Shown one piece after another: positions 5,788-33,648 of a stretch of DNA of 64,000 nt; the stretch's first letter is position 1; each line of letters begins with the position of its first letter. The stretch comes from Bacillota bacterium (GTDB lineage: Bacteria; Bacillota; Sulfobacillia; JACIYH01): contig JASEFA010000001.1 in the NCBI GenBank assembly GCA_030019365.1, forward strand, positions 270,953-334,952, in the 5' to 3' direction. The notes under the pieces are model-generated. The model was not told the origin of the DNA and made no database searches. It worked only from the letters and a program-made list of their open reading frames with translations. The position numbers and the translations under genes are program-made.

Positions 5788-6775
5788 CACCCACCTCCGC
5801 GGCACTTCTCCCCAGGGCCGGCGGGACGACTTCTTCGCCACCTGCCGCGCCAAACTGGAGGAAGTGGTGAACCTGGCGGAGGACCTGGGGGTGAGCGCCC
5901 TCCTGCACCTGGGGGACGTGTTCGACCGCCCCGACCTGGCTCCCGGCGTGGCACGGGAATTCATGCTTGTCCTGCGCCGCTGCCGGGTGCCCGTGTACGG
6001 CATCGTCGGCAACCACGATGTTTACGGTCACAACCCGGACAGCCTCCCCCGCACCCTGCTCGGGCTGGTGGAGGCACTGGGTGGGCTGCGGCTCCTGCGG
6101 TGCGGCGAGGTGGAGCTGCTGGGAGGTCCGGGGCAGTTGAAGGTGCAGCTCACCGGGGCCCCCTTCCAGCACGACATCGACAGCAGGGACGGGGCGGACT
6201 ACGTGGTCAGCAGGGATGCCCGCGCGGACGTGGCCATCCACATGGCTCACGGCATGCTTCTCGAGAAACCCTGGGTGTCCGGGATGGACTATACGCTCAT
6301 CGAACGGGTGGCACCGCGCACCGGTGCCGATCTCACCCTGGTGGGGCACTACCACCTGGGGTACTCCCGGCTTCCCCTCGAGCCCGTACCGGGGCGCCTC
6401 TTCGTCAACCCCGGTGCCATGGTGCGCCTGGAAGCCAGCCTGGCGGAGATTGCCCGTCACCCGCAGGTGGTGCTGGTGGAAGTGGAGGGGAGTGGCATCT
6501 CGGTGCGCGGCATCCCTCTGCGGAGCGCGCTCCCGGGGGATGAGGTGCTGGACCGTTCGCTCATCGAAGCGGCCGCCTACCGGGATACCCAGCTGGCCGA
6601 CTTCATCCAGCGGGTGAAAGGGGCCTGGGACGGGCGCCGCCTGTTTGACCTGGAGGACATGGTGGCCGCCATCGCCGGCGGCGAAGGATACCCGGAGGAA
6701 GTGAAGAGGGAGGCGCTGCAGCGGGTGGGGATGGCTCGGGAACGCCTGGCGGGGAGGAGCGGGAGGGAAAGGTGA
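5765..6775 (+). CDS. DNA repair exonuclease, Mre11/SbcD-like metallophosphoesterase
   Basis: 336 aa. All calcineurin-like metal motifs are visible: [11 protein letters not shown] (DxH, residues 3-13), LLHLGDVFD (GD), YGIVGNHDVYG (GNHD), IHMAHG (H) and LVGHYHLGYSR (GHxH). This is the Mre11/SbcD nuclease fold that works with Rad50/SbcC ATPases in DNA end processing. ATG 5765 has GAGGAG 7 nt upstream and overlaps the end of recX. The stop overlaps the next start (GTGA), coupling it to a Rad50-type ATPase half. It is shorter than E. coli SbcD, as in minimal nuclease versions. Confidence 0.85.
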   Translation: MRFLVVADTHLRGTSPQGRRDDFFATCRAKLEEVVNLAEDLGVSALLHLGDVFDRPDLAPGVAREFMLVLRRCRVPVYGIVGNHDVYGHNPDSLPRTLLGLVEALGGLRLLRCGEVELLGGPGQLKVQLTGAPFQHDIDSRDGADYVVSRDARADVAIHMAHGMLLEKPWVSGMDYTLIERVAPRTGADLTLVGHYHLGYSRLPLEPVPGRLFVNPGAMVRLEASLAEIARHPQVVLVEVEGSGISVRGIPLRSALPGDEVLDRSLIEAAAYRDTQLADFIQRVKGAWDGRRLFDLEDMVAAIAGGEGYPEEVKREALQRVGMARERLAGRSGRER

Positions 6776-20985: not shown

Positions 20986-22407
20986 TTGGGGGCGAACCGG
21001 AATAGGGGCGAAGAGGGTGAGCGGGAGCTGCGGCGCTATTACGTGGAAGCTTACGGCTGCCAGATGAACGTGCACGACGCCGAGAACGTGGCCGGCATGC
21101 TGGAGGGCCTGGGGTATGAGCCGGCCACCTCGGTGGACGACGCCGATGTGGTGGTGATTCTCACCTGCTGCGTGCGGCGCACGGCCGAGGACCGGGCCTG
21201 GGGCCGGGTGGGGGAACTGGCCCGGCTCAAGCAGCGGCGGCCCGGGGTGGTGCTGGCCCTGGGCGGCTGTATGACCCAGCAGTCGGGTGTGGTGGAGGAG
21301 GCGCGCCGGCGGGCACCCCACCTGGACCTCATCTTCGGGACCCACAACCTGTACCGCTTGCCGGAACTGCTGGGCCTGGTGCGGCCGGGGAACACGGTGG
21401 CCGAGGTATGGCAGGAGGACGGCAGCCTTCCCCCGCCCCTGCCCGTGCGGCGGGGAGCGGGCGTGCGAGCCTGGATCACCATCATGTATGGGTGCGACAA
21501 CTACTGCAGCTACTGCATCGTGCCCTACGTGCGGGGACGCCAGCGCAGCCGGGCCGCCGAGGAGGTGCTGAGGGAGGCAGAAGACGCGGTGCGCGACGGC
21601 TATCGGGAGGTGTTCCTCCTGGGGCAGAACGTCAACGATTACGGACGCGACCTGCCCGGCGGGCCGGACTTCGCGGAGTTGCTGCGACGGCTGGATCGGA
21701 TACCGGACCTGGACCGGCTGCGCTACACCACCTCGCACCCCCGCGACTTCACCGATGCCATGATCGAGGCGGTGGCGGAGTGCCCCAGCGTGTGCGAGCA
21801 CTTCCACCTGCCCGTGCAGGCGGGTTCCGACCGCATCCTCGCCCTCATGAACCGGGGCTACACCCGCGACCAGTACCTGGACCTGCTCCGTCGCATCCGC
21901 GCCCGTGTGCCCGGTTGCAGCGTGACCACGGACATGATCGTGGGTTTCCCCGGCGAGACTGACGGGGAGTTCGCCGACACCCTGGACCTGGTGAGGAAGG
22001 CACAGTTCGACGCCGCTTTCACCTTCATGTTCTCGCCCCGCCGGGGAACCCCGGCCGCTTCCCTGCCCGGCCAGCTGCCGGTGGTCGAGAAGAAGAGGCG
22101 GCTGGCCGAACTCAATCGTCTCCAGAACAGTATTTCCCTGGAAAAGAACCGGGAGCTCGTGGGAAGCGACGTGGACGTGCTGGTAGAGGGCGTTTCCGAG
22201 CGGGACCCCGGGTATCTCACCGGGCGCACCCGCACGGGTAAGGTGACCGTATTCCCGGGACCGGCCGGGTGGGCGGCGAAGATGGTGGTGGTGAGGGTGG
22301 AGAAGGCTCTCACCTGGACCCTGCACGGCCGGGCGGTGGGTGGTGAGGTGCGCGTTGACGCCGGTGCTGAGGCAGTACCGGGCTCTCAAGGAGAAACACC
22401 GGGATAG
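20986..22407 (+). CDS. miaB: tRNA-2-methylthio-N6-dimethylallyladenosine synthase
   Basis: About 473 aa. Radical-SAM methylthiotransferase acting on i6A37 of tRNA. N-terminal cluster cysteines: AYGCQMN, TCCVR and GGCMTQQ. Radical SAM cluster: GCDNYCSYCIVPYVRGRQ. The C-terminal TRAM domain ends near residue 465. The start is uncertain: no ATG/GTG lies right before the conserved YYVEAYGC, so TTG 20986 or GTG 20953 are candidates. miaB overlaps mutS by 53 bp; miaA, which makes its substrate, lies three genes downstream. Confidence 0.92.
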   Translation: MGANRNRGEEGERELRRYYVEAYGCQMNVHDAENVAGMLEGLGYEPATSVDDADVVVILTCCVRRTAEDRAWGRVGELARLKQRRPGVVLALGGCMTQQSGVVEEARRRAPHLDLIFGTHNLYRLPELLGLVRPGNTVAEVWQEDGSLPPPLPVRRGAGVRAWITIMYGCDNYCSYCIVPYVRGRQRSRAAEEVLREAEDAVRDGYREVFLLGQNVNDYGRDLPGGPDFAELLRRLDRIPDLDRLRYTTSHPRDFTDAMIEAVAECPSVCEHFHLPVQAGSDRILALMNRGYTRDQYLDLLRRIRARVPGCSVTTDMIVGFPGETDGEFADTLDLVRKAQFDAAFTFMFSPRRGTPAASLPGQLPVVEKKRRLAELNRLQNSISLEKNRELVGSDVDVLVEGVSERDPGYLTGRTRTGKVTVFPGPAGWAAKMVVVRVEKALTWTLHGRAVGGEVRVDAGAEAVPGSQGETPG

Positions 22408-25009
22408 CATCCTGCTCTTTCGCCTGGGTGACTTCTACGAGGGGTTCTATGAGGACGCCGAGGTGATGGCCCGCGAGTTGGGCATCACCCTCACCTCCCG
22501 CGAGATGGGGAAGGGGAACCGGGCCCCCATGGCGGGCATCCCCTACCGCGCCGCGGAAGGGTACATATCCCGGCTGGTGGAGCGCGGCCACCGGGTGGCC
22601 ATCTGTGAGCAGGTGGAGGACGCCGGCAAGGCACGGGGCCTGGTGCGCCGGGAAGTGGTGCGTACGGTCACGCCGGGCACGGTGAGCGAGGGCCGCCTGC
22701 TGGAGGACAGGGGTCACCGCTGGCTGGCAGGCCTGTGCGTCCACCGCCGGGCCTGGGGGCTGGCCAGTGCCGATGCCTCCACCGGCGAGTTCCGCGTCAC
22801 CCAGCTGGAGGGGCCGGACGCGGCCCGCCTGGCCCTGGAGGAACTGGCCCGGCTGGCTCCCGCCGAGTGTCTGGTGCCCGCTTCCCTGGCGGCCGACCCG
22901 GGCATAGGGCAGGTGATGCGAGAGGCGGGAGGCATCCTCACCCCCCGCGACGAGCCGGAGTTCGCCCCCGAGGAGGCGCGCAGCCGCCTGCTATCCCACT
23001 TCCAGGTGGCGTCCCTGGGCGGCTACGGCTGCGAAGGGCAAGCTGCCGCCGTGGGCGCGGCGGGGGCCGTTCTCAAGTACCTGGGGGAAACCCAGGGAAC
23101 GTGTGCCCACGTGCGCGAGTTGGTGGCATATCAGGTGGGCGAGCATCTGGTGATCGACCCCACCGCGCGGCGTAACCTGGAGCTGTTCCACCGCTGGCCC
23201 GATGGCAGGACGGAGGGCACCCTGTGCTGGGTGCTGGATCAGACCGTCACCCCGGCGGCGGGGCGACGGCTGCGCTCCTGGCTGGAGCGTCCTCTCACCG
23301 AGCCGGCCCGCATCGAAGAGCGGCTCGACGCAGTGGAGGAGATGGCCGGCGATGCTCTCCTGCGGGAAGAGCTCCGGGACCTGCTCAGGCACACCTGCGA
23401 CGGGGAACGGCTGCTGGCCCGCGCAGCCACGGGTGCCCTGACACCTCGGGAACTGGGGCATGTCCGCCGGACCCTGGGCATCCTGCCCCGCGTGCGGGAA
23501 GTGGTATCCCGCGCCACTTCCAACCTGGTGGGGCGACTGGGCGGGCGCCTGGACGCTCCCGCGGAACTGGTTGATCTCCTCAACCGCGCCCTGGGGGATG
23601 ACCCCCCGGTGTCGCCCCACGAGGGGGGCATCATTCGGGAGGGGTTTTCCCCGGAAGTGGATGGACTGCGCCAGGCGGCGCGGGAAGGGCGCACCTGGCT
23701 GGCCCGGCTGGAGGCCGAGGAGCGGGAACGCACGGGCATCAAATCCCTCAAGATAGGCTACAACCAGGTGTTTGGCTACTACTTTGAGGTTACCCGGGCC
23801 AATCTCTCCCTGGTGCCGGCCGATTGGACGCGGCAGCAGACCCTGGCGGGGGCGGAGCGGTTCTTCACCGGCCGGCTGAAGGAGCTGGAGAGCACCATCC
23901 TGGGTGCCCAGGAGAAGCTGGAGCGGGTGGAGTGCGATCTCTTCTCCGGGCTACGGGAGAGGGTGGTCGATCACCGCGATACCCTGGCCGGCGCCTTCTC
24001 CGCCCTGGCCGACCTGGATGCCCTGGCCGCGCTGGCCGAGGTGGCCGTGCGCCACGGCTACGTCCGCCCCCTGGTGGACGACGGCGACGCCATCTGGATC
24101 GAGGACGGGCGCCACCCCGTCCTGGAGAGGATGATGGGCGAAGGCGAATTCGTGCCCAACAGCGTGGCCCTGGATGCGGGTTGCCGCCTGCTGGTGATCA
24201 CGGGACCCAACATGGCGGGGAAATCCACCTACATGCGCCAGGTGGCCCTGGTGGTCGTCATGGCCCAGATGGGTAGCTTCGTGCCCGCCCGGCGGGCCAG
24301 GGTGGGGGTGGTGGACCGGCTCTTCGTGCGCGTGGGAGCATACGACGACATCGCTTCCGGGCAGAGCACCTTCATGGTGGAGATGAGCGAAGTGGCCCGC
24401 GCCCTGCGCCACGCCACCGCCCGCAGCCTGGTGATCCTGGACGAGATCGGCCGGGGTACGGGTACCTTCGACGGCATGAGCATCGCCTGGGCGGTGGCCG
24501 AGCACCTGCACGACCGGGTGGGGTGCCATACCCTGCTCGCCACCCACTACCGGGAACTGATCGCCCTGGGAGAACGGCTTCCTGCCGCAGCCAACTGTTC
24601 GGTGGCGGTGCGCAGGCGGGGGCGGGACATCATCTTCCTGCGCCGGGTGGTACCCGGCGGCGCCGATGCCTCTTACGGGGTGGAGGTGGCCAAGCTGGCG
24701 GGGCTGCCCGAGGCGGTGGTGGAGCGGGCTGGGGACATCCTGGCCCGGCTGGAGGCCGGGGGGAGTCATCCCCACCGGGCGGCCCTGGAGGCCGCTGCCA
24801 CGAGCCCCGACCGGGCGGACCCCGGGATGGCGGGTCGGGTGCGCGAGCAGGCACCCTTGCAACTCACCTTCCTGTCCCCGCCTGCCAGTCCGCTGGTGCG
24901 GGAACTGGCCGAGCTGGACCCCCTGCGCATGACTCCTATCGAGGCCATTGCCCGGCTGCATGAACTGAGCGAGCGAGCGCGCCGCGAGATCGGCCACGGG
25001 ACCGGATGA
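22355..25009 (+). CDS. mutS: DNA mismatch repair protein MutS
   Basis: 884 aa. N-terminal mismatch-binding domain with FRLGDFYEGFYED (Phe-x-Glu reader). Core and clamp domains follow. The ATPase domain has Walker A GPNMAGKSTYMRQ and signature DEIGRGTGTFDGMSIAWA, then LLATHYREL. The C-terminal helix-turn-helix dimerisation tail is present. TTG 22355 aligns with the family start (LTPVLRQYRALKEKH) and has GAGG 6 nt upstream. The gene overlaps miaB by 53 bp. Confidence 0.97.
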   Translation: MTPVLRQYRALKEKHRDSILLFRLGDFYEGFYEDAEVMARELGITLTSREMGKGNRAPMAGIPYRAAEGYISRLVERGHRVAICEQVEDAGKARGLVRREVVRTVTPGTVSEGRLLEDRGHRWLAGLCVHRRAWGLASADASTGEFRVTQLEGPDAARLALEELARLAPAECLVPASLAADPGIGQVMREAGGILTPRDEPEFAPEEARSRLLSHFQVASLGGYGCEGQAAAVGAAGAVLKYLGETQGTCAHVRELVAYQVGEHLVIDPTARRNLELFHRWPDGRTEGTLCWVLDQTVTPAAGRRLRSWLERPLTEPARIEERLDAVEEMAGDALLREELRDLLRHTCDGERLLARAATGALTPRELGHVRRTLGILPRVREVVSRATSNLVGRLGGRLDAPAELVDLLNRALGDDPPVSPHEGGIIREGFSPEVDGLRQAAREGRTWLARLEAEERERTGIKSLKIGYNQVFGYYFEVTRANLSLVPADWTRQQTLAGAERFFTGRLKELESTILGAQEKLERVECDLFSGLRERVVDHRDTLAGAFSALADLDALAALAEVAVRHGYVRPLVDDGDAIWIEDGRHPVLERMMGEGEFVPNSVALDAGCRLLVITGPNMAGKSTYMRQVALVVVMAQMGSFVPARRARVGVVDRLFVRVGAYDDIASGQSTFMVEMSEVARALRHATARSLVILDEIGRGTGTFDGMSIAWAVAEHLHDRVGCHTLLATHYRELIALGERLPAAANCSVAVRRRGRDIIFLRRVVPGGADASYGVEVAKLAGLPEAVVERAGDILARLEAGGSHPHRAALEAAATSPDRADPGMAGRVREQAPLQLTFLSPPASPLVRELAELDPLRMTPIEAIARLHELSERARREIGHGTG

Positions 25010-25043
25010 CAGGGGGCGGGTAGATGGGAGTGATGGCGGTGGG

Positions 25044-26777
25044 GTGATCAGGCAGCTGGATGCGGGCACCGTGGCCAGGATAGCGGCCGGCGAGGTGGTG
25101 GAAAGGCCGGCCTCCGTGGTCAAGGAGCTGGTGGAGAACAGCATCGATGCCGGCGCCCGGCGCATCGTGATCACCTGTCGCCGGGGCGGGTTCGATCTCA
25201 TCCAGGTCACGGACGACGGCTGCGGCATGATGCCGGAAGACGCTCCCCTGGCCTTTGCCCGCCACAGCACCAGTAAGCTCGCCTCTGCGGAAGACCTGCC
25301 CCGGGTGGTCACCCTGGGATTCCGGGGTGAGGCCTTGCCCAGCATTGCCGCCGTGGCCCGGGTGGAGCTCGTCACCTGCCCTCCGGGCGCTCCCTGGGGC
25401 ACCAGGGTGGTGGTGGAAGGGGGCGAGGTGGTGCAGGTGGAGGAGGCCGCCGCCCGGGCGGGCACGCGGGTGACCGTGCGGGACGTGCTGGCGGAAGTGC
25501 CCGCCCGGCGGAAGTTCCTGGCCGATCCCCACCGGGAGGGCCTGCGCTGCGTGGACGTGGTGATGCGGCTGGGCGCGGGCTACCCGGGCACCGCCTTCCG
25601 CCTCGAGATGGACGGGCGGCTGGTCCTCAGCACCCCGGGGGACGGTCGGCTCCTGGACACCCTGGTGGCCCTGTACGGTCCGGAGACGGCCCGCGCGCTG
25701 ATTCCGCTGGCGGGCGCGGGCGACTCCGACGGGCACCCCGGAGAGCCGGCCGGCCGGGGAGGAGACCGGCCCGGGTCACCATCCGTGGCCGGATACGTGG
25801 GAGGCCCGGCCACCTTCCGCAGCCGGCGGTGGGCCCAGTTGCTGTACGTGAATGGCAGGCCGGTGCGCGCCCCTGCGCTGGTGGCAGCGGTGGAGTCGGC
25901 ATTCGGACCCCTCCTGCCGCCTGACCGCCACCCCTTCATCATCCTGTTCCTGGCTGTGGACCCGGGTGAGGTGGATGCCAACGTTCACCCCGCCAAGGTG
26001 GAAGTACGCCTGGCTCGGGAGGATGCGGTAAGGTCCCTCCTGGTGCGCGCCGCTACCCGGGCCCTGGCCTCCGCCGACATGTCCCGCCCGCTGCTGGGTG
26101 ATGCTGCAGTCTCCCCGTCCGTGGGGGCGGGGCCAGGTCCGGATGATGAGGCGGCAGCCGGGAGCGGGCGCCAGCAGGGCGCAGGTGACCTGGTGGCGCA
26201 GGCCGGGCCGGTGTGGGAAGCGGATCTCTCCGGGATGCGTGTGATCGGACAGGCTATGGGCACCTACGTTCTGGCAGAAGGGCCCGAGGGGGTATACGTG
26301 GTGGACCAGCACGCCGCCCACGAGAGGGTGTTCTACGAAACGATGGAGTTCCCCCAGCGGAGCCAGTTGCTCCTGGTGCCCCTGGTGGTCAGGACCGACC
26401 TCCGGGAAAGGGAAGTGCTGCGCGCCTTCCGGGAGGAGATCGGCCGGGCGGGCTTCGAGGTAGAAGAGTGGGAAGGGGACGCGGTGGCCCTGCGCGCCAT
26501 TCCCGCCTGGGCAGCGGGTCACGAGGAGAGAGCACTGCGGGATCTGCTGGAGGCACTGGACGAGCCCGGGCGGGGGGAGGTTCAGGAGCACCTGCGCCGG
26601 GCGACCGCGGCCTGCCGGGCGGCCGTGAAAGCGGCCATGACCCTGCACCAGGCGGAGGCGGAAGCTTTGCTTGCGCAGCTGGGTCGCTGCGAGAACCCCT
26701 GGGTGTGCCCCCACGGCAGGCCCACGGTGCTCAAAGTCACCCGGGCCGAACTGGAACACCACTTCGGAAGGCGATGA
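25044..26777 (+). CDS. mutL: DNA mismatch repair protein MutL (endonuclease type)
   Basis: 577 aa. GHKL ATPase motifs: ERPASVVKELVENSIDAGA, DDGCGM, RHSTSKL and TLGFRGEALPSIAAV. The C-terminal domain carries the metal-binding endonuclease motif DQHAAHERVFYE (DQHA-x2-E-x4-E) and CPHGRPT, so MutL nicks DNA itself; no mutH is needed. A Pro/Gly-rich linker with low-complexity repeats joins the domains. GTG 25044. The end overlaps miaA (ATGA). Confidence 0.96.
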   Translation: MIRQLDAGTVARIAAGEVVERPASVVKELVENSIDAGARRIVITCRRGGFDLIQVTDDGCGMMPEDAPLAFARHSTSKLASAEDLPRVVTLGFRGEALPSIAAVARVELVTCPPGAPWGTRVVVEGGEVVQVEEAAARAGTRVTVRDVLAEVPARRKFLADPHREGLRCVDVVMRLGAGYPGTAFRLEMDGRLVLSTPGDGRLLDTLVALYGPETARALIPLAGAGDSDGHPGEPAGRGGDRPGSPSVAGYVGGPATFRSRRWAQLLYVNGRPVRAPALVAAVESAFGPLLPPDRHPFIILFLAVDPGEVDANVHPAKVEVRLAREDAVRSLLVRAATRALASADMSRPLLGDAAVSPSVGAGPGPDDEAAAGSGRQQGAGDLVAQAGPVWEADLSGMRVIGQAMGTYVLAEGPEGVYVVDQHAAHERVFYETMEFPQRSQLLLVPLVVRTDLREREVLRAFREEIGRAGFEVEEWEGDAVALRAIPAWAAGHEERALRDLLEALDEPGRGEVQEHLRRATAACRAAVKAAMTLHQAEAEALLAQLGRCENPWVCPHGRPTVLKVTRAELEHHFGRR

Positions 26778-27715
26778 CCGGGTTGCCCCTGCTGCTGGTA
26801 ATATGCGGCCCCACGGCGGTGGGGAAGTCGGCTGTCGCCCTGGAACTGGCCCGTCGGCTGGGTGGGGAGATTATCTCCGGCGATTCCGCCCAGGTGTATC
26901 GTCACATGGACATCGGTACCGCCAAGCCGACCCCTGCGGAGCGGCGCGAGATCCCTCACCACCTGGTGGACATCCGGGACCCGGACCAGCGCTGGAGCGT
27001 GGCCGATTTCCGCAGTGCGGTGGACGAACTGGTCCCGCAGGTGGTCGCCCGCGGTCATCTCCCCATCCTGGCCGGAGGCACCATGCTCTACATCCGCGCG
27101 GTCACCGCGGGGTACCACTTCCCTTCGCCCGCCTGTGATCCCGGGCTACGTCAGCGGCTCTATGAGCAGGTGACCAGGGAGGGAGTGGCTTCCCTGCACG
27201 CACGGCTGGCCGGCCTGGACCCCGACACGGCAAGGCGTCTCCACCCCGGGGACGTGCGCCGCATCGTACGTGCCCTGGAAGTCTGTCTCCTCACGGGGGA
27301 GCGGATGTCGGTGCTCGCCGCCCGCCGGCAACCCGGCCCGTACCGTCCCCTGGTGGTGGGGCTGACGCGCCCCCGTCCCGTCCTTTACCGTCGCATCGAT
27401 GCCCGGGTGGACGACATGCTCCAGGCGGGGCTGGTGGAGGAGGTGAGGAGGCTGCTGGCGCGGGGCTACCACCCCGGGATCCCCAGCATGCGGGCCCTTG
27501 GCTACCGGGAGATGGTCGATTACCTTTACGGGAGGACGACCCTGGAGGAGGCCAGGCGGCTCTTTGCCCGCAACACCCGCCACTTCGCCCGCCGTCAGTT
27601 CACCTGGATGAGGCGGGAAAGGGGGATGACATGGATAGATCTGGGAGAAGATAAAGAAGAAGAAGCCATCCTGCGCGTCATGGAGCTGGTGGCAGGAAAT
27701 CGCTGGCCCCCGTAG
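26774..27715 (+). CDS. miaA: tRNA dimethylallyltransferase
   Basis: 313 aa. Walker [16 protein letters not shown] near the start, then [18 protein letters not shown] and [10 protein letters not shown], which bind DMAPP and the tRNA A37 site. [15 protein letters not shown] and [12 protein letters not shown] complete the catalytic domain. Makes i6A37, later methylthiolated by MiaB in the same cluster. ATG 26774 overlaps the mutL stop by ATGA; hfq follows after 47 bp. Confidence 0.96.
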
Positions 27716-27762
27716 AAGCAAAGGCAGGTCAGGAAGACCGCAGCAATCGGGAGGGGAAACCG

Positions 27763-28020
27763 TTGGCGAAGGATGCCGTGAACCTGCAGGATTTGTTCCT
27801 CAACCAGGTGCGTAAAGAAGGTATACCGGTTACCGTTTATCTTGTAAACGGCTTTCAGTTGAAGGGCCTGGTAAAGGGTTTTGACAACTTCACGGTGGTG
27901 CTGGACAACGAGGGCCGCCAGATGATGATTTACAAGCACGCCATATCCACGATCAGTCCCTCCCGCAGCGTGAACCTGGCCGCCCTGGTCTCGGAGGCGC
28001 GTAAGGACACAGCCACGTGA
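27763..28020 (+). CDS. hfq: RNA chaperone Hfq
   Basis: 85 aa. The Sm1 motif ([20 protein letters not shown]) and Sm2 motif ([11 protein letters not shown]) are intact. The protein forms a hexamer that pairs small RNAs with mRNAs. TTG 27763 is preceded by GGGAGGGG at about 6 nt. It converges on a minus-strand redox gene with a 2-bp gap between stops. Confidence 0.96.
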
Positions 28021-28022
28021 TG

Positions 28023-28361
28023 TTAGAGTTTGAGCTGGCGACCGGCCGCCTCGGAGAGGGCCTTCCTCACCATGGAGCCGGGGGGGGATCCCTGGGGTCC
28101 CAGGGGACCAGGATACACGCGGCAGGCCAGGCTCCATCCTGCCATGGTGCGGAAGGCCGCATCCACGTCCAGGCCGTCTACCCGCACGGTGGGTGACCCC
28201 AGAAAGCCGACGCGCTCGGCGGTGGCAGCGTCGGCCACCGGTATCATGGTGATGGGTACCTGGAGATTCATCTCGGACAGGGTCTTTTCCACGACCGCCC
28301 GGGTCGCTTCCACGTGGGGTCAGCCCGGGCTGTGGAGGAGCTCTATCCTCAGGTGCCTCAC
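28023..28361 (-). CDS. Thioredoxin-fold selenoprotein (UGA at the redox position)
   Basis: 112 aa if the in-frame UGA at 28322-28320 is read as selenocysteine. The frame is then open from GTG 28361: LRIELLHSPG-U-PHVEATRAVV, in which U replaces the redox cysteine expected in G-C-P-H motifs of the fold. Conserved features continue past the UGA (ITMIPVADAATAERVGFLG, SPTVRVDGLDV). A hairpin CGACC-loop-GGTCG (28292-28306) starts 13 nt after the UGA, as bacterial SECIS elements do. It is the fourth gene of the redox operon. A TGC-to-TGA error cannot be excluded, but a second gene in the operon shows the same pattern. Confidence 0.6.
28292..28306 (-). promoter_or_regulatory. Candidate SECIS hairpin of the thioredoxin-fold selenoprotein
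   Basis: Stem CGACC/GGTCG with a 5-nt loop, 13 nt downstream of the UGA at 28320-28322 on the minus strand. The distance suits bacterial SECIS elements. Folding judged by eye. Confidence 0.4.
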
Positions 28362-28371
28362 CCCCCGGTGA

Positions 28372-29151
28372 TCAGGTTCCCTGGCCGGCCAGGCGGACGT
28401 GGCGGCAGCGGGTGCATTCCAGGCACAGGATGCACTGGGAGGAGCGGGGATGGCGCCAGACCTCGTGATCCATGGGGCAGAGGTCCCGGCACCAGCCACA
28501 TTCCGTGCAGCGAGCGTCCACCTCCAGGTGTTGCCGGCTGAACCGGTTGGTCAGCCCGTAGAAGAGGCCGAGCGGGCACACGAAACGGCAGAACGGGCGC
28601 TTGACCACGAGCACCGCTGCCACCAGCCCCAGCAGGATGGCCAACTTGATCCCGAACAGGGCGCCTGCCATCTGCCGCAGCCCGGGATCGATGGCCAGCC
28701 AGGGTATGCCCGCTTCTAGAGTCCCCGCGGGGCAGAGCTTGCAAAACCAGGGCTCGTGCAGCACGAGCGGCAGGGCGACCACCAGCACTGCGGCCACCAC
28801 CCACCTGGTCCAGGCATGGCGGTTGGAAACGTGGAGGACGGGGAGGCGCAATCGCCGGCCCAGGCGGTGGCCCAGCTCCTGCAGGAAGCCGAAGGGGCAC
28901 AGCCACCCGCAGGCCCTACGTCCCCACCAGCTTCCCACCGCCCCCAGCGTTCCCAGGGTGAACAGGGGGGCGCGACCGAGGGCCAGAAAGTACTGGATGG
29001 TGCCGATGGGGCAGGCCCCGATCGCCAGCGGGCAGGCATAGCAGTGCAGGAACGGGTAGGGCAGGTGCTTCAGGAAGGGCAGGGCGTACAGGTTCGCCGC
29101 CACCAGGGAAACCAGCTGCCACAGCGTACGCCGGCCCTGGGCCTTCTTCAC
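28372..29151 (-). CDS. NapH/MauN-like 4Fe-4S membrane ferredoxin
   Basis: 259 aa. Hydrophobic segments alternate with cysteine motifs: CYACPLAIGACPIG, CGWLCPFGF, CKLCPAGTLEAG and CRFVCPLG. C-terminal ferredoxin sites are CTECGWCRDLCPMDHE and CILCLECTRC (two 4Fe-4S clusters). This is the NapH-type quinol/electron-transfer membrane family. GTG 29151 overlaps the stop of the preceding 45-aa gene (GTGA), so it is translated together with it. The upstream frame is a shadow of that gene. Confidence 0.85.
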   Translation of the reverse strand: MKKAQGRRTLWQLVSLVAANLYALPFLKHLPYPFLHCYACPLAIGACPIGTIQYFLALGRAPLFTLGTLGAVGSWWGRRACGWLCPFGFLQELGHRLGRRLRLPVLHVSNRHAWTRWVVAAVLVVALPLVLHEPWFCKLCPAGTLEAGIPWLAIDPGLRQMAGALFGIKLAILLGLVAAVLVVKRPFCRFVCPLGLFYGLTNRFSRQHLEVDARCTECGWCRDLCPMDHEVWRHPRSSQCILCLECTRCRHVRLAGQGT

Positions 29152-29285
29152 GGTGCCAGTCCGATGCAGGAGAGACACAGGGTTACGGCGTTGCGGTAGA
29201 TCAGGGCCAGTTCTCCCCGGGCTGCCCCCACCCCCAGGGCAAGCAGAGCCAGGAGCAGAGCGATCTTGCCTGTTCGCCAGTTCAA
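29148..29285 (-). CDS. CD1871A-like small CxxC membrane peptide
   Basis: 45 aa. TTG 29285 with GGAGG about 7 nt upstream; the start overlaps the stop of the selenoprotein gene (TTGA) and its own stop overlaps the NapH-like start. One membrane helix (KIALLLALLALGVG) is followed by RGELALIYRNAVTLCLSCIG with a CxxC. This matches the small CD1871A CxxC peptide family, whose genes often lie in such redox operons. Too short for usual gene calls. Confidence 0.7.
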   Translation of the reverse strand: MNWRTGKIALLLALLALGVGAARGELALIYRNAVTLCLSCIGLAP

Positions 29286-29830
29286 TTCCCCGCCTCCACA
29301 ATGAGCTCTTGCAGTTCCCGGGTCAGGTCGGCCGTACCCGGGTAGCCCTCGTGCCGGTAGCGGATGTTCCCCCGGTGGTCTATGAGCACCAGGGTGGGGA
29401 TGGCCCGGATGCGGTAAGCCGCCGCCACGGCGCCCTGCTGGTCTAGCAGGACGGTGAAAGTGAGACCCCGCGATGCCACAAACCGTTCCACCGGAGCGCG
29501 CTCGGGATCCAGGCTGGGTGCCAGGATGACGACCTCTTGACCGAAGCTCTGGTGTATCTGCTGCAACTGCAGCAGTTCCGTACGGCACGCGGGTCAGGTG
29601 GTGCCCCAGAAGTTGAGCAGCACTGGCCTGCCCCGCAGGGAGTCCAGGCTGACCTGGTTCCCCGCCAGGTCGGGCAGGGTGAAGTAGGGAGCCGCCTGCC
29701 CGCCGGATTCCTCCCGGGAGCGACATCCCCCGGGGAGGGTGGCCAGGATCAGGACCAGTGCCAGAGCAAGCACGATTCTTGCTGCGTGAGATGGGAATCG
29801 GCCCGCTGACGATCGGTGCGACAACTGCAT
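29282..29830 (-). CDS. TlpA/ResA-like thioredoxin selenoprotein
   Basis: 182 aa with the UGA at 29596-29594 read as Sec (residue 79). N-terminal membrane segment (LALALVLILATLPGGC, possible lipoprotein-like signal), then PYFTLPDLAGNQVSLDSLRG and VLLNFWGTT-U-P-A-C-R, where TlpA/ResA proteins have C-x-x-C; here U-P-A-C. Conserved sequence continues: AYRIRAIPTLVLIDHRG (cis-Pro loop). A 7-bp hairpin with loop AGTT lies 18 nt after the UGA. Probably an extracytoplasmic thiol-disulfide enzyme. Start ATG 29830; first gene of the operon. Confidence 0.65.
29558..29575 (-). promoter_or_regulatory. Candidate SECIS hairpin of the TlpA-like gene
   Basis: Perfect stem CTGCTGC/GCAGCAG with loop AGTT (minus strand), starting 18 nt downstream of the UGA at 29594-29596. 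Loop with G-U and the distance are as expected for bacterial SECIS. Confidence 0.45.
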
Positions 29831-29845
29831 ACCCCCCGGGGTTCT

Positions 29846-29874
29846 ATTTTAGCCGCTGGCGTCGCGGGCGGCAA
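29846..29874 (-). promoter_or_regulatory. Candidate promoter of the selenoprotein operon
   Basis: On the minus strand, TTGCCG (29869-29874) and TAAAAT (29846-29851) are 17 bp apart; the ATG at 29830 follows within 16 bp, giving a short leader. Confidence 0.45.
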
Positions 29875-29978
29875 GTTGGGTATCACCCGCTCACCGGCCA
29901 GGTGCTTACCGGCGCCGGCTGACCCGTTGCCACCCGCAATCTTCGGCTCCCGGGCTGCCGCCTGCGCCAGGCCGCGGT

Positions 29979-31736
29979 TCAGCGGAAGACCGGGCCCAGG
30001 AAGAGGCAGGTGAACAGCACATCCCACAGCACGAACCTGCCCACCCGGGCCAGGCCCTGAGCATCCCGGTGGCGAAGGGCGGTGGTGAGCCCGGCCAGCC
30101 CCGCCGCCCCCAGCAGGATGGGCAGGGTGAGGGCAGGTGTGACCCACGGCGGGGCCCGCATGGCCAGCACCGGGGCGTGTAGCAGGCGCCAGAGCAGCCA
30201 GCCCTTGCCGGCCAGGTATACCCCCAGGGCCAGTATGCCCAGAGGGCGGGGATGTTGCTCCGCCCAGTTGAGGGCCACGGCGTGGGCTGCCACCAGCACC
30301 AGGAGGGCCGGCACCGTCCAGCCCAGGGCAAACAGGAAAGGCAGGTACGAGAGAAACGCTCCCGCCAGGGTTTCGCCGAGAGCCGCAGTCAGGTCGGAAA
30401 GCCGCACCCTGGCCATGGCCTGGCGGTAGACGGGGACGGAGGCCGTGAAGCGCAGCCGGAATCGTCCCGTACCGGCGGTATCCACCCAGGTGAGGAAATA
30501 GCCCCCGTCGTCTATCGCGGGACCGGCGGGGGCGGGGACCAGGTGGGGCTGGCCGGCCGCGCCCCGGGTGAGGGCGGCAAACTGGCAGTCTACCATGCGG
30601 CCCCCCAGGAACCGCGCTACCAGCACGTCTTCATCCTGCCCGCGCCTGCCCCGGTTGAGGGCGGTGAAGGCCACGGGCAACCCTCCCTGCGGGGAAGGGG
30701 CGGGGTCCGGTTCCGCCAACCAGAGGATGTGCCGGGCGGCCACGGCCGTCGCCCGCAGGGGGGCAAGGCCCCCTGCCGCCCCGGCGGGAGGCCGGGTCGC
30801 AGGCCATGCCTGCCAGTAGGTGGTGATGTCCAGGTTGCCTCTCTGCCTCTTCTCCCGGGTGACGAACACGTACATCCACTCGCCGTCGGTGCCGCATCGT
30901 ACCTGCCGCAGGAGCTCGTGCTCCTCGAGGGGGTACTCCCCCAGCAGGACGGGATGCGCCGCCCCGGCGGTACCCCCCAGTTCCAGGTACTCCAGTTGGA
31001 AAGAGCCCCGTTCCTGGATCACGCCCACAACCGCCACCCGATCACGGGCGAGGGAGACCCCGTCCGCCAGCGTCATCCCCGGGCGGGGGACCCGCTGCGG
31101 CTGGCCGGGATGCCCGCTCGCGTCCAGCGGGAACCACAGGAGGCCCTCAGGACCGGCGGCCAGCAACCCGGCAGAACGTGCGGCCGGGGCGGCAGCCAGC
31201 GCGGAGGCACCACCGGCGGGTGGTGCGCCCGGACCGGCGGTGGGTGGCGCGCCCGGACCGGCGGTGGGTGGCGCGGATACGAGACGCACCATGCTGATGC
31301 CCCCGCCCAGGTGCACCGGGCTCCCGAGGGACGGTGCGGAGAGGGAAAGGGGCGCCCAGTAAAGCTCGGTGAGGGCCGGACCGGCCAGCCAGAAGAGGGC
31401 GGAGGAACCCGCCAGCAGGGAAGTGGGAGACCTGGTAGGGGTGTCGACCTGCAGGGGAATGTGGCCGCGGGCCTTCACCAGGGCCTGCGGGGAAACCAGG
31501 ATGTAGTCGATACCCCCCCGGACCGACCACAGTACGAGGAGGTCCCCGTCCGGAGCGGCCTGCGCGGCAGTGGACCCCGACATGTCCGACGACGCCAGTT
31601 CCAGGGGCCGGCCGAAGGAAGGGCCGGGCGGCCGCAGCTGCTCCTGCAGGAAACGCTGGTAGTGGAACGCCACCAGCAGCAGCACGACCAGGAATGGGAA
31701 GGCGGCCCAGAGCCGCCTCTTTCCTGCCTCTTTCAT
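29979..31736 (-). CDS. Large membrane protein with extracytoplasmic beta-rich region, unknown
   Basis: 585 aa. One N-terminal helix (LWAAFPFLVVLLLVAFHY, about 9-26), a long exported region of about 380 residues rich in Leu/Gly with repeated W/F-rich strands (beta-propeller-like), and about five C-terminal helices (about 430-580) beginning near LAGAFLSYLPFLFALGW. ATG 31736 has GGAGG 8 nt upstream. It has a tandem A-P-P-T-A-G-P-G repeat. No catalytic motif recognised; it may be a sensor or transport-associated protein. Confidence 0.7.
   Translation of the reverse strand: MKEAGKRRLWAAFPFLVVLLLVAFHYQRFLQEQLRPPGPSFGRPLELASSDMSGSTAAQAAPDGDLLVLWSVRGGIDYILVSPQALVKARGHIPLQVDTPTRSPTSLLAGSSALFWLAGPALTELYWAPLSLSAPSLGSPVHLGGGISMVRLVSAPPTAGPGAPPTAGPGAPPAGGASALAAAPAARSAGLLAAGPEGLLWFPLDASGHPGQPQRVPRPGMTLADGVSLARDRVAVVGVIQERGSFQLEYLELGGTAGAAHPVLLGEYPLEEHELLRQVRCGTDGEWMYVFVTREKRQRGNLDITTYWQAWPATRPPAGAAGGLAPLRATAVAARHILWLAEPDPAPSPQGGLPVAFTALNRGRRGQDEDVLVARFLGGRMVDCQFAALTRGAAGQPHLVPAPAGPAIDDGGYFLTWVDTAGTGRFRLRFTASVPVYRQAMARVRLSDLTAALGETLAGAFLSYLPFLFALGWTVPALLVLVAAHAVALNWAEQHPRPLGILALGVYLAGKGWLLWRLLHAPVLAMRAPPWVTPALTLPILLGAAGLAGLTTALRHRDAQGLARVGRFVLWDVLFTCLFLGPVFR
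31212..31278 (-). repeat. 24-bp tandem repeat in the membrane protein
   Basis: About 2.7 copies of a 24-bp unit starting GGACCGGCGG on the plus strand (31231-31254, 31255-31278, and a partial copy before). They encode an A-P-P-T-A-G-P-G repeat on the minus strand. Confidence 0.65.
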
Positions 31737-31959
31737 GTCGCCGACCTCCTTCCCGTGCTTCGATGGAGGCCGCACGCATTCCTGCTTTCCCGTCCGCGCG
31801 CCCGCGGACCGATTTTTCTCGAAACAGGGGGAGCCAGGAGGGGGAGCGCTCAGCGATGACGAATATAAAAGGCTGAATGGGCAGAGGGGGTGGTAGCCTG
31901 CACTGCGAGGATTGAACCGGTCATGGTTGCCGGCGGTATGACAAAGGGGGGTTGACAAG

Positions 31960-33648
31960 GTGAAGAGAAAGGTGGCATGGCTCGCCTGGCTGCTGGTGGT
32001 GGCGATGGTAGGTACCGTGGTGGTCACGGGCTGCGCGAAGAAGCCTGCGGAACCGGAGAAGAAGCCCCCGGTGGAGCAGGTGCTCAACCTGAACCTGGGC
32101 GAGGAGCCTCCGGACCTGGACGCCAACACTTCAACCGACCAGGTGTCCTTCGAGATCCTGAACAACGTCATGGAAGGCCTGGTCCGGGTGGGCGCGGGCG
32201 AGAAAATCGAGAAGGGCTCCGGGCTGGCCCTGGACTGGACGGTATCGGATGATGGGATGAAGTACACCTTCAAGCTGCGGGACGCCAGGTGGAGCGACGA
32301 CAAGCCCGTCACCGCCTATGACTTCGAGTATGGCTGGAAGCGGGCCCTGGATCCCAACACCGGGTCCCAGTACGCCTATATCATGTACCCCGTGAAGGGT
32401 GCCGAGGCCCTGAACAGTATCGACCCCAAGGCTCCGGACTCGGCGGCCAAGATCGAAGCGGCCAAGGCCGCTCTGGGTGTAAAGGCCCTGGACGAGAAGA
32501 CCCTGGAGGTCACCCTGGAGTCGCCCACGCCGTACTTCATCAGCCTGATGGCGTTCCCCACCTATTACCCCATCCGCAAGGACATCATCGAGAAGTTCGC
32601 AGACGCGTATGCTGCCGAGCCGGACAAGATGGTGTACTGCGGACCCTTCGTGATCCAGGAGTGGCAGCACGAGTCCAAGCTGGTGCTGGCCAAGAACCCC
32701 AAATACTGGGATGCTGACAAGGTTAAGCTCAGCCGCATCGAGTTCGTCATGATCAAGGACCACAACGCCTACATGAACATGTTCGAAGCGGGCGAACTCG
32801 ACGGGACTGGCGTTCCGGGCGACTTCATCCAGAAATACAAGGACGCCGGCAACCTGCAGACCATCCCCGAGGCCGTGACCTGGTACATCCTGTTCAACCT
32901 CAAGAGCCCCGTCTTCAAGAACAAGAACATGCGCAAGGCCTTCTCCCTGGCCATCGACCGCCAGGACTTCGTAGACAAGGTGCTGAAGAACATGTCTCTG
33001 CCGGCCACTTCTTACACGCCCCCCTCCATCACCACGCCTGACGGCAAATCCTTCGCCAAGGACATGGTGGGTGAACTGATCCCCAAGAAGGCGGACCCGG
33101 CGGCGGCCAAGGCCGCCCTTCAGCAGGGCATGAAGGAGCTCAAGCTCAAGAAGCTGCCCAAGATAGTGTTCTTGTCGTCCGACAGCAGCGTGGCGAAGAA
33201 GTACGCTGCCGCCTGGCAGGAGATGTGGAAGCAGAACCTGGGCGTGGAGGTCCAGGTGGATGCGGTGGCCTTCAAGGTGCGCATCGACCGCATGTCCAAG
33301 GGTGACTACGATGTGTGCATGGCGGGCTGGGGCGCCGACTTCAACGATCCCATGACCTTCATCGACATGTGGGTCACGGGTGGCGGCAACAACGATGCCG
33401 GCTACTCCAATCCCAAGTACGACCAGCTGGTCAAGGAAGCGAAGGCCACCGGCGATCAGGCCATCCGCTTCCGCAACATGCTGGAGTGCGAGAAGATCAT
33501 CGCCGAAGACCTGCCCATCGCTCCCGTGTGGTGGCCGGTGTGGAACTTCGTGGAGAAGCCTTACCTGAAGGGCGTCATCCGCCACCCGGTGGGACCCGAC
33601 CTCGACTGGAAGTACGTGACCGTCGAGGGCAAGCCGGAAAAGAAGTAG
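31960..33648 (+). CDS. oppA: Peptide ABC transporter substrate-binding lipoprotein (OppA)
   Basis: 562 aa. Signal peptide with lipobox VVTGC (Cys about residue 24), then the SBP_bac_5 domain: LNLGEEPPDLDANTS, LRDARWSDDKPVTAYDFEYGWKRALDP and PVYCGPF-type strands. Binds extracellular oligopeptides for import. GTG 31960, with a purine-rich site 9 nt upstream. First gene of a complete opp operon; about 223 bp separates it from the divergent membrane protein. Confidence 0.95.
   Translation: MKRKVAWLAWLLVVAMVGTVVVTGCAKKPAEPEKKPPVEQVLNLNLGEEPPDLDANTSTDQVSFEILNNVMEGLVRVGAGEKIEKGSGLALDWTVSDDGMKYTFKLRDARWSDDKPVTAYDFEYGWKRALDPNTGSQYAYIMYPVKGAEALNSIDPKAPDSAAKIEAAKAALGVKALDEKTLEVTLESPTPYFISLMAFPTYYPIRKDIIEKFADAYAAEPDKMVYCGPFVIQEWQHESKLVLAKNPKYWDADKVKLSRIEFVMIKDHNAYMNMFEAGELDGTGVPGDFIQKYKDAGNLQTIPEAVTWYILFNLKSPVFKNKNMRKAFSLAIDRQDFVDKVLKNMSLPATSYTPPSITTPDGKSFAKDMVGELIPKKADPAAAKAALQQGMKELKLKKLPKIVFLSSDSSVAKKYAAAWQEMWKQNLGVEVQVDAVAFKVRIDRMSKGDYDVCMAGWGADFNDPMTFIDMWVTGGGNNDAGYSNPKYDQLVKEAKATGDQAIRFRNMLECEKIIAEDLPIAPVWWPVWNFVEKPYLKGVIRHPVGPDLDWKYVTVEGKPEKK

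Follow-up and report, generated by a model that had tools for sequence, protein, structure and literature searches.

The DNA analysed here (the window, 64,000 nucleotides in all) carries on its minus strand an operon of four genes in the order TlpA, micropeptide, NapH-like and DF. The first (29282..29830) codes for a TlpA/ResA-like thiol-disulfide oxidoreductase that is predicted to be a selenoprotein (U79), and is followed by a CxxC micropeptide of 45 residues (29148..29285), with one predicted helix and the ending CLSCIGLAP, by a NapH-like membrane 4Fe-4S protein (28372..29151) and, as the last gene of the operon, by a DF family (seleno)protein (28023..28361), the second predicted selenoprotein of the operon. 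The TTG start of the micropeptide overlaps the TlpA stop, and the GTG start of the NapH-like gene overlaps the stop of the micropeptide. The micropeptide passes the profile of the CD1871A family (NF040920; 33.9 bits, cut-off 32), and the NapH-like protein, which was also assigned by alignment, passes PF12801 (61.7 bits, cut-off 22) and fails TIGR02163 (NapH/MauN; 62.4 bits, cut-off 213.05). On the plus strand (22340-28020), mutS, mutL and miaA (recognized by eye), followed by hfq (family match), run convergently to the operon, the end of hfq lying two bases from the DF gene; upstream of the operon, on the minus strand (29979-32312), there is a 777-codon frame with no NCBIfam or Pfam match. A plasmid search with 28023-29850 gave no match.

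Translated on the minus strand from 29830 to 29282, with its in-frame UGA (29594..29596) read as Sec, the TlpA gene gives MQLSH...VLLNFWGTT-U-PACRTELLQLQQ...IPTLVLIDHRGN...EAGN*, where U is residue 79, position one of a UPAC motif, and where the frame is closed by a TGA at 29284-29282; the plus strand of 29282-29830 does not encode TlpA. A preliminary description of this DNA had given the coordinates of the gene, the position of the UGA and the residue number correctly, leaving the strand unstated. The product passes the Pfam families AhpC-TSA (PF00578; 94 bits, gathering cut-off 26) and Redoxin (PF08534; 83.9 bits, gathering cut-off 26.6), and has a hydrophobic N-terminus with a possible lipobox, LPGGC (seen by eye). 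Codon 79 falls where the TlpA/ResA-type CxxC motif has its first Cys, exactly as the preliminary description had it: solved ResA, which aligns over TlpA residues 43-156 and so through the UGA site, has Cys at residue 79, and among the homologues, with which a comparison had been suggested, the metagenomic protein P0003 (72% identical) also has Cys at this position. The stretch beyond the UGA contains the other active-site Cys as well as the cis-Pro loop of the fold, and its dN/dS values (0.23, 0.17 and 0.23 for the three genome pairs of the genus) point to purifying selection. Both remaining genomes examined of this genus (congeners G001 and G002) have TGA at codon 79, which is therefore found in 3/3 genomes. 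Off-target rows (the Asn row of locus L075, the gapped rows of L027 and L028 and the opposite-strand rows) were left out of the comparison at the TlpA site. The preliminary description had also stressed that the frame is intact on both sides of the UGA; the open frame is real, but it makes a weak argument, since the GC-rich window contains 106 TGAs with >70 stop-free codons on either side. Because such frames are common here, the case for Sec must use other evidence, and what makes the TlpA frame credible is the homology across the codon, the selection downstream of the UGA and the retention of the codon throughout the genus.

A contig scan with the NapH-like protein gave 108 loci, the best 80 of which were analysed. 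In 72 of these best 80 loci the NapH-like gene is directly preceded by the micropeptide (identified with a custom pattern), the other eight having no match to the pattern, and 51 of the 72 cassettes have a same-strand TlpA gene between -1.5 and +2.5 kb (33 upstream and 18 downstream). The pairing of the small CxxC peptide with the NapH-like protein, which the preliminary description had singled out as deserving attention, is thus a conserved cassette, with TlpA as its frequent neighbour. The 21 cassettes with no adjacent TlpA include L039, L040 and L053, that is, all the loci of this set in which the micropeptide itself contains a UGA. The first active-site codon of the 51 adjacent TlpA genes is TGC in 39, TGT in seven and TGA in five (L026, apparently the locus of congener G001, L028, L044, L047 and L071). 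L028 (4154-5600) is damaged, with a TAG in its NapH-like gene and a frameshift in its UGA-bearing TlpA, and neither SelA nor a tRNA-Sec was found in its 1.0-Mb assembly; it was kept in the counts and is not used as support. In L044, from a Tissierellia MAG, the TlpA gene contains another in-frame TGA near 6374, just before the cis-Pro loop (FELINFI-U-STPTAIVVD), and the hairpin after its first, active-site UGA is weak. Clustering of the neighbouring genes of the 72 cassettes revealed no constant partner besides TlpA, the largest cluster (ABC-transporter ATPase-like, by eye) being present in 10/72, and no fusion of cassette genes was found among the best 120 of 7902 NapH-like proteins (out of 7999 scored candidates); by eye, four long members seem to be internal duplications.

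The NapH-like protein contains invariant or nearly invariant Cys residues in a C-terminal ferredoxin part, with two Cx3CP motifs, and an invariant N-terminal CxxCx6CP motif (C37, C40, C47) that lies outside the match to the NapH profile (77-249). Cys 137 (FCKLCPAG), which is nearly invariant, is Ser in the Chloroflexota loci L039, L040 and L042, which comprise both UGA- and Cys-micropeptide genomes. A Foldseek search with a model of this protein (pLDDT 88.9) gave nothing below E = 0.001, and when its alignment was searched against the sequences of solved structures the best stretches fell within the ferredoxin part. The positive charges of its loops are only suggestive as a topology cue.

The 7-bp hairpin that the preliminary description had noticed 18 nt after the UGA of TlpA is present (29557..29575, minus strand; CTGCTGC-AGTT-GCAGCAG in the DNA, CUGCUGC-AGUU-GCAGCAG in the message), with its AGUU loop 25 nt from the UGA and an energy of -11.1 kcal/mol. 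The limits of bacterial SECIS elements (bSECIS) set out in the legend of Fig. 2 of PMC13188914 are a loop of 3-9 nt with G in its first two positions, a stem of 4-16 bp, a distance of 16-37 nt from the UGA to the loop and an energy <= -7.5, and this predicted bSECIS falls within all of them. An almost identical hairpin follows the UGA of the L071 TlpA gene, and that of L047 (Tepidibacter thalassicus) has a different 8-bp stem with the loop AGUUG at an equal distance. In a custom hairpin scan (not bSECISearch), 5/7 UGA TlpA sites reach -8 kcal/mol or lower, the failing ones being L028 and L044, as against 1/48 Cys TlpA genes at <= -5; at a laxer cut-off of -3 kcal/mol, a hairpin is also found in 15/48 Cys TlpA genes, and L028, L044 and one DF site score no better than these. 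Within the genus, all five amino-acid-identical codons under the hairpin are also identical in DNA, versus 46/94 elsewhere, which lends the predicted hairpin supportive, if modest, backing. An Rfam scan of 27500-30500 returned nothing SECIS-like, its two weak IRES_Bip matches being far below the family cut-off.

The DF gene is absent from the preliminary description. Its product, read from the GTG at 28361, passes NF049942 (90.9 bits, cut-off 70), and its in-frame UGA (28320..28322, minus strand), the predicted Sec codon 14, is present as TGA in 3/3 genomes of the genus (G000, G001 and G002), with dN/dS values of 0.28-0.37 after it. A possible bSECIS hairpin with the loop CGGGC (28291..28307, minus strand) has an energy of -7.7 kcal/mol in the window and is weaker in the congeners (-3.3 and -5.7). 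Among 107 loci, a DF relative adjoins the cassette in this genus only.

In some relatives it is the micropeptide that carries the UGA. Its first Cys codon is TGA in L039 and L040 (Chloroflexota) and in L053 (isolate Meg19_46_Bin_182), the ends reading NATLL-U-LSCIGIQ* and NGALI-U-LTCIGVG*, while the codon of the second Cys is either TGC or TGT, and never TGA, in 72/72 loci. Three more UGA forms, L114, L118 and L119, emerged when the search was extended to the L040 order (7 genomes) and the L053 phylum (20 genomes); Cys forms are also present in both groups. In total, UGA micropeptides of about 45 residues, each before a NapH-like gene (L039:4907, L040:4916, L053:3518, L114:1430, L118 and L119), are found in 6/85 loci, in six genomes of two lineages. 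From this set of 85, 13 repeat loci of genomes already counted were omitted, with the exception of L124 and L136, which come from one genome; L113 and L135, missed by the pattern, were read by eye as Cys, and L116 was left out. A SECIS-like hairpin at <= -8 kcal/mol is seen in 5/6 UGA forms versus 1/79 Cys forms (5/6 versus 6/79 at -5) and extends across the gene's own stop codon; in L039, the sole UGA form that fails, the hairpin is bulged. Comparison of L053 with L118/L119 shows U-A in place of a C-G pair in the stem, a compensatory change with one side beyond the stop codon. None of the five UGA micropeptides that were scored reaches the NF040920 cut-off of 32 (L039 17.5, L040 21.5 and L114 25 bits, no match for L053 and L118), and the Cys micropeptides of the same groups are also under it (L042 20 bits, L063 14.9 bits). 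On these features, the UGA form may be regarded as a candidate new selenoprotein microprotein. A literature search (CD1871A, Sec microprotein, TlpA + NapH cassette), with PMC12013261 and PMC9879109 outside its scope, found no report of a Sec form and, judging by titles and the openings of abstracts, no paper on this cassette, and the main text of the 2026 review PMC13188914 makes no mention of NF040920, CD1871A or a Sec form of the micropeptide.

The preliminary description had made its selenoprotein dependent on the presence of Sec machinery, and the claim survived: the genome of the window contains a tRNA-Sec (anticodon TCA), SelA, SelB and SelD. The selD gene (L016, on contig C11) has one in-frame TGA, so that SelD is probably itself a selenoprotein. 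SelA is found in 12/13 genomes with a UGA-bearing cassette (the exception being L028; G003 and G001 were counted as one) versus 15/64 genomes with Cys cassettes. For the first 72 genomes the figures are 7/8 UGA versus 15/64 Cys (Fisher p = 7e-4, uncorrected for kinship). All six UGA-micropeptide genomes have SelA, as do 7/9 further Cys genomes from the L040 and L053 groups, and within these groups the presence of SelA therefore fails to separate UGA from Cys forms. A tRNA-Sec scoring >60 bits was detected in 5/7 UGA genomes versus 9/37 Cys genomes tested; the two UGA genomes without one are L028 and L039, the latter having SelA.

We regard it as highly probable that residue 79 of TlpA is read as Sec, as the preliminary description had predicted, given the Sec machinery, the TGA throughout the genus, the Cys homologue and a hairpin within the bSECIS limits. 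If the UGA were instead a plain stop, leaving a 78-residue fragment, or the mark of a decaying gene or of a sequencing error, the chance open frames around the 106 TGAs of the window and the damaged appearance of L028 would be in keeping with it; yet the same TGA is present in three genomes of the genus, dN/dS is 0.17-0.23 beyond the UGA, the other active-site Cys is encoded there together with the cis-Pro loop, and the Sec machinery is complete, which makes this explanation very improbable. Sequencing error, which the preliminary description had itself named as a case against Sec, is unlikely since both congeners have TGA at the same codon. A changed genetic code, with UGA read as Trp or another residue, is more improbable still: the one observation in its favour is the continuation of the frame past the UGA, whereas UGA terminates the TlpA, micropeptide and NapH-like genes of the same operon, 46/51 adjacent TlpA genes have Cys at the site and the remaining five UGA, and the tRNA with a UCA anticodon that was found is tRNA-Sec.

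Selenoproteins with a UxxC motif and a TlpA-type fold are known, as the preliminary description had noted: Table 1 of PMC13188914 lists predicted UxxC proteins of the redoxin/TlpA fold as Prx-like (PF00578), Redoxin (PF08534) and thiol-disulfide isomerase-like (cd02966). The TlpA of the window resembles them in fold family and in having a predicted Sec first in UxxC, and differs in belonging to an operon of two predicted selenoproteins with a micropeptide and a NapH-like protein, an arrangement that does not appear in the consulted parts of that table or of the review's text on selenoprotein operons. It shares with ResA, StoA and TlpA the alignment to solved ResA and a presumed export, although it remains below the NCBIfam cut-offs for ResA (NF002854; 97.2 bits, cut-off 170) and StoA (67.8 bits, cut-off 210) and its first Cys is replaced by the predicted Sec. 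The window micropeptide is a CD1871A member by its score, and the UGA forms of its relatives, under the cut-off, are like it in motif and gene order. The NapH-like protein has the Fer4_5 domain, the Cx3CP motifs and the C-terminal ferredoxin part of NapH/MauN, but is far below the TIGR02163 cut-off and has the additional N-terminal CxxCx6CP. DF is a known predicted selenoprotein family (PMC13188914, Table 1) that the deep-Sep paper described, in the part consulted, as Sec-containing in a single organism and lacking TGA homologues elsewhere (PMC12013277); in contrast, the DF genes reported here, of which that of the window passes the family cut-off, have TGA in three species of another lineage. 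What would be new is thus the two-selenoprotein operon and the candidate Sec micropeptide of the relatives, the TlpA gene itself probably being an addition to a known family.

Proteins of the DsbD/CcdA type import cytoplasmic reducing power to extracytoplasmic thioredoxin-fold proteins by means of membrane cysteine pairs. The relay proposed here would do an equal job, carrying cytoplasmic electrons to exported dithiol proteins, with those pairs replaced by an Fe-S protein and a one-helix dithiol peptide. We infer that the Sec machinery of the cell, together with the hairpin just past the UGA, would decode codon 79 as Sec in a TlpA that is exported and likely lipid-anchored, and in which Sec would be the attacking residue, as it may be wherever it is found in the proteins of the cassette. 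TlpA and the CxxC of the micropeptide would lie at the outer face of the membrane; the NapH-like protein would take up electrons in the cytoplasm through its Fe-S clusters and pass them to the dithiol (or selenol-thiol) of the micropeptide and from there to TlpA, which would then act outside the cytoplasm as a reductant of disulfides or of some other oxidised substrate. Orientation, direction and substrate are proposed here from motifs. What speaks most for a shared dithiol chemistry, on sequence grounds, is that in two different proteins of the cassette the predicted Sec takes the place of the first Cys and not of the second. A Sec TlpA was not observed alongside a Sec micropeptide, as the UGA-micropeptide loci L039, L040 and L053 have no adjacent TlpA.

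Taken as a whole, a Sec-containing exported TlpA that is fed electrons across the membrane by the micropeptide and the NapH-like protein is the reading that we favour, with some reserve. For the direction from the cytoplasm to TlpA we see even chances, and likewise for the broader proposal that an Fe-S membrane protein and a one-helix CxxC micropeptide of about 45 residues form a relay, and that Sec entered the exported TlpA (in the genus of the window and in other Bacillota) and the micropeptide (in Chloroflexota and the L053 group) independently. It is conceivable, if less probable, that Sec in TlpA is right and the relay wrong, the NapH-like protein and the micropeptide being quinone-linked or oxidising, or the CxxC holding a metal or a cluster, with TlpA a mere frequent neighbour. 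NapH proteins are ferredoxin proteins of the quinol side, TlpA is absent beside 21/72 cassettes, and sequence cannot give a direction, all of which would suit such an arrangement. Against it, the micropeptide motif alternates between Sec and Cys at its first position and has Cys at its second in all 72 loci, a pattern that suits thiol exchange better than a structural metal site; moreover, a same-strand TlpA lies beside 51/72 cassettes, the genes of the window are joined by start-stop overlaps, and no other recurrent gene family surrounds the cassette.

Two predicted selenoproteins share an operon with an uncharacterised redox cassette of many anaerobe-type genomes, in which ordinary annotation would make TlpA appear truncated and would overlook the predicted micropeptide selenoproteins. 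The TlpA and micropeptide motifs both alternate between Sec and Cys at position one, which marks the residues that are likely to react and makes the proposed relay directly testable, and a hairpin lying across the stop codon of a tiny gene bears on SECIS-directed decoding at the end of a message. If the reading is true, the micropeptide would represent a new selenoprotein family, among the smallest, with its SECIS hairpin over its own stop codon.
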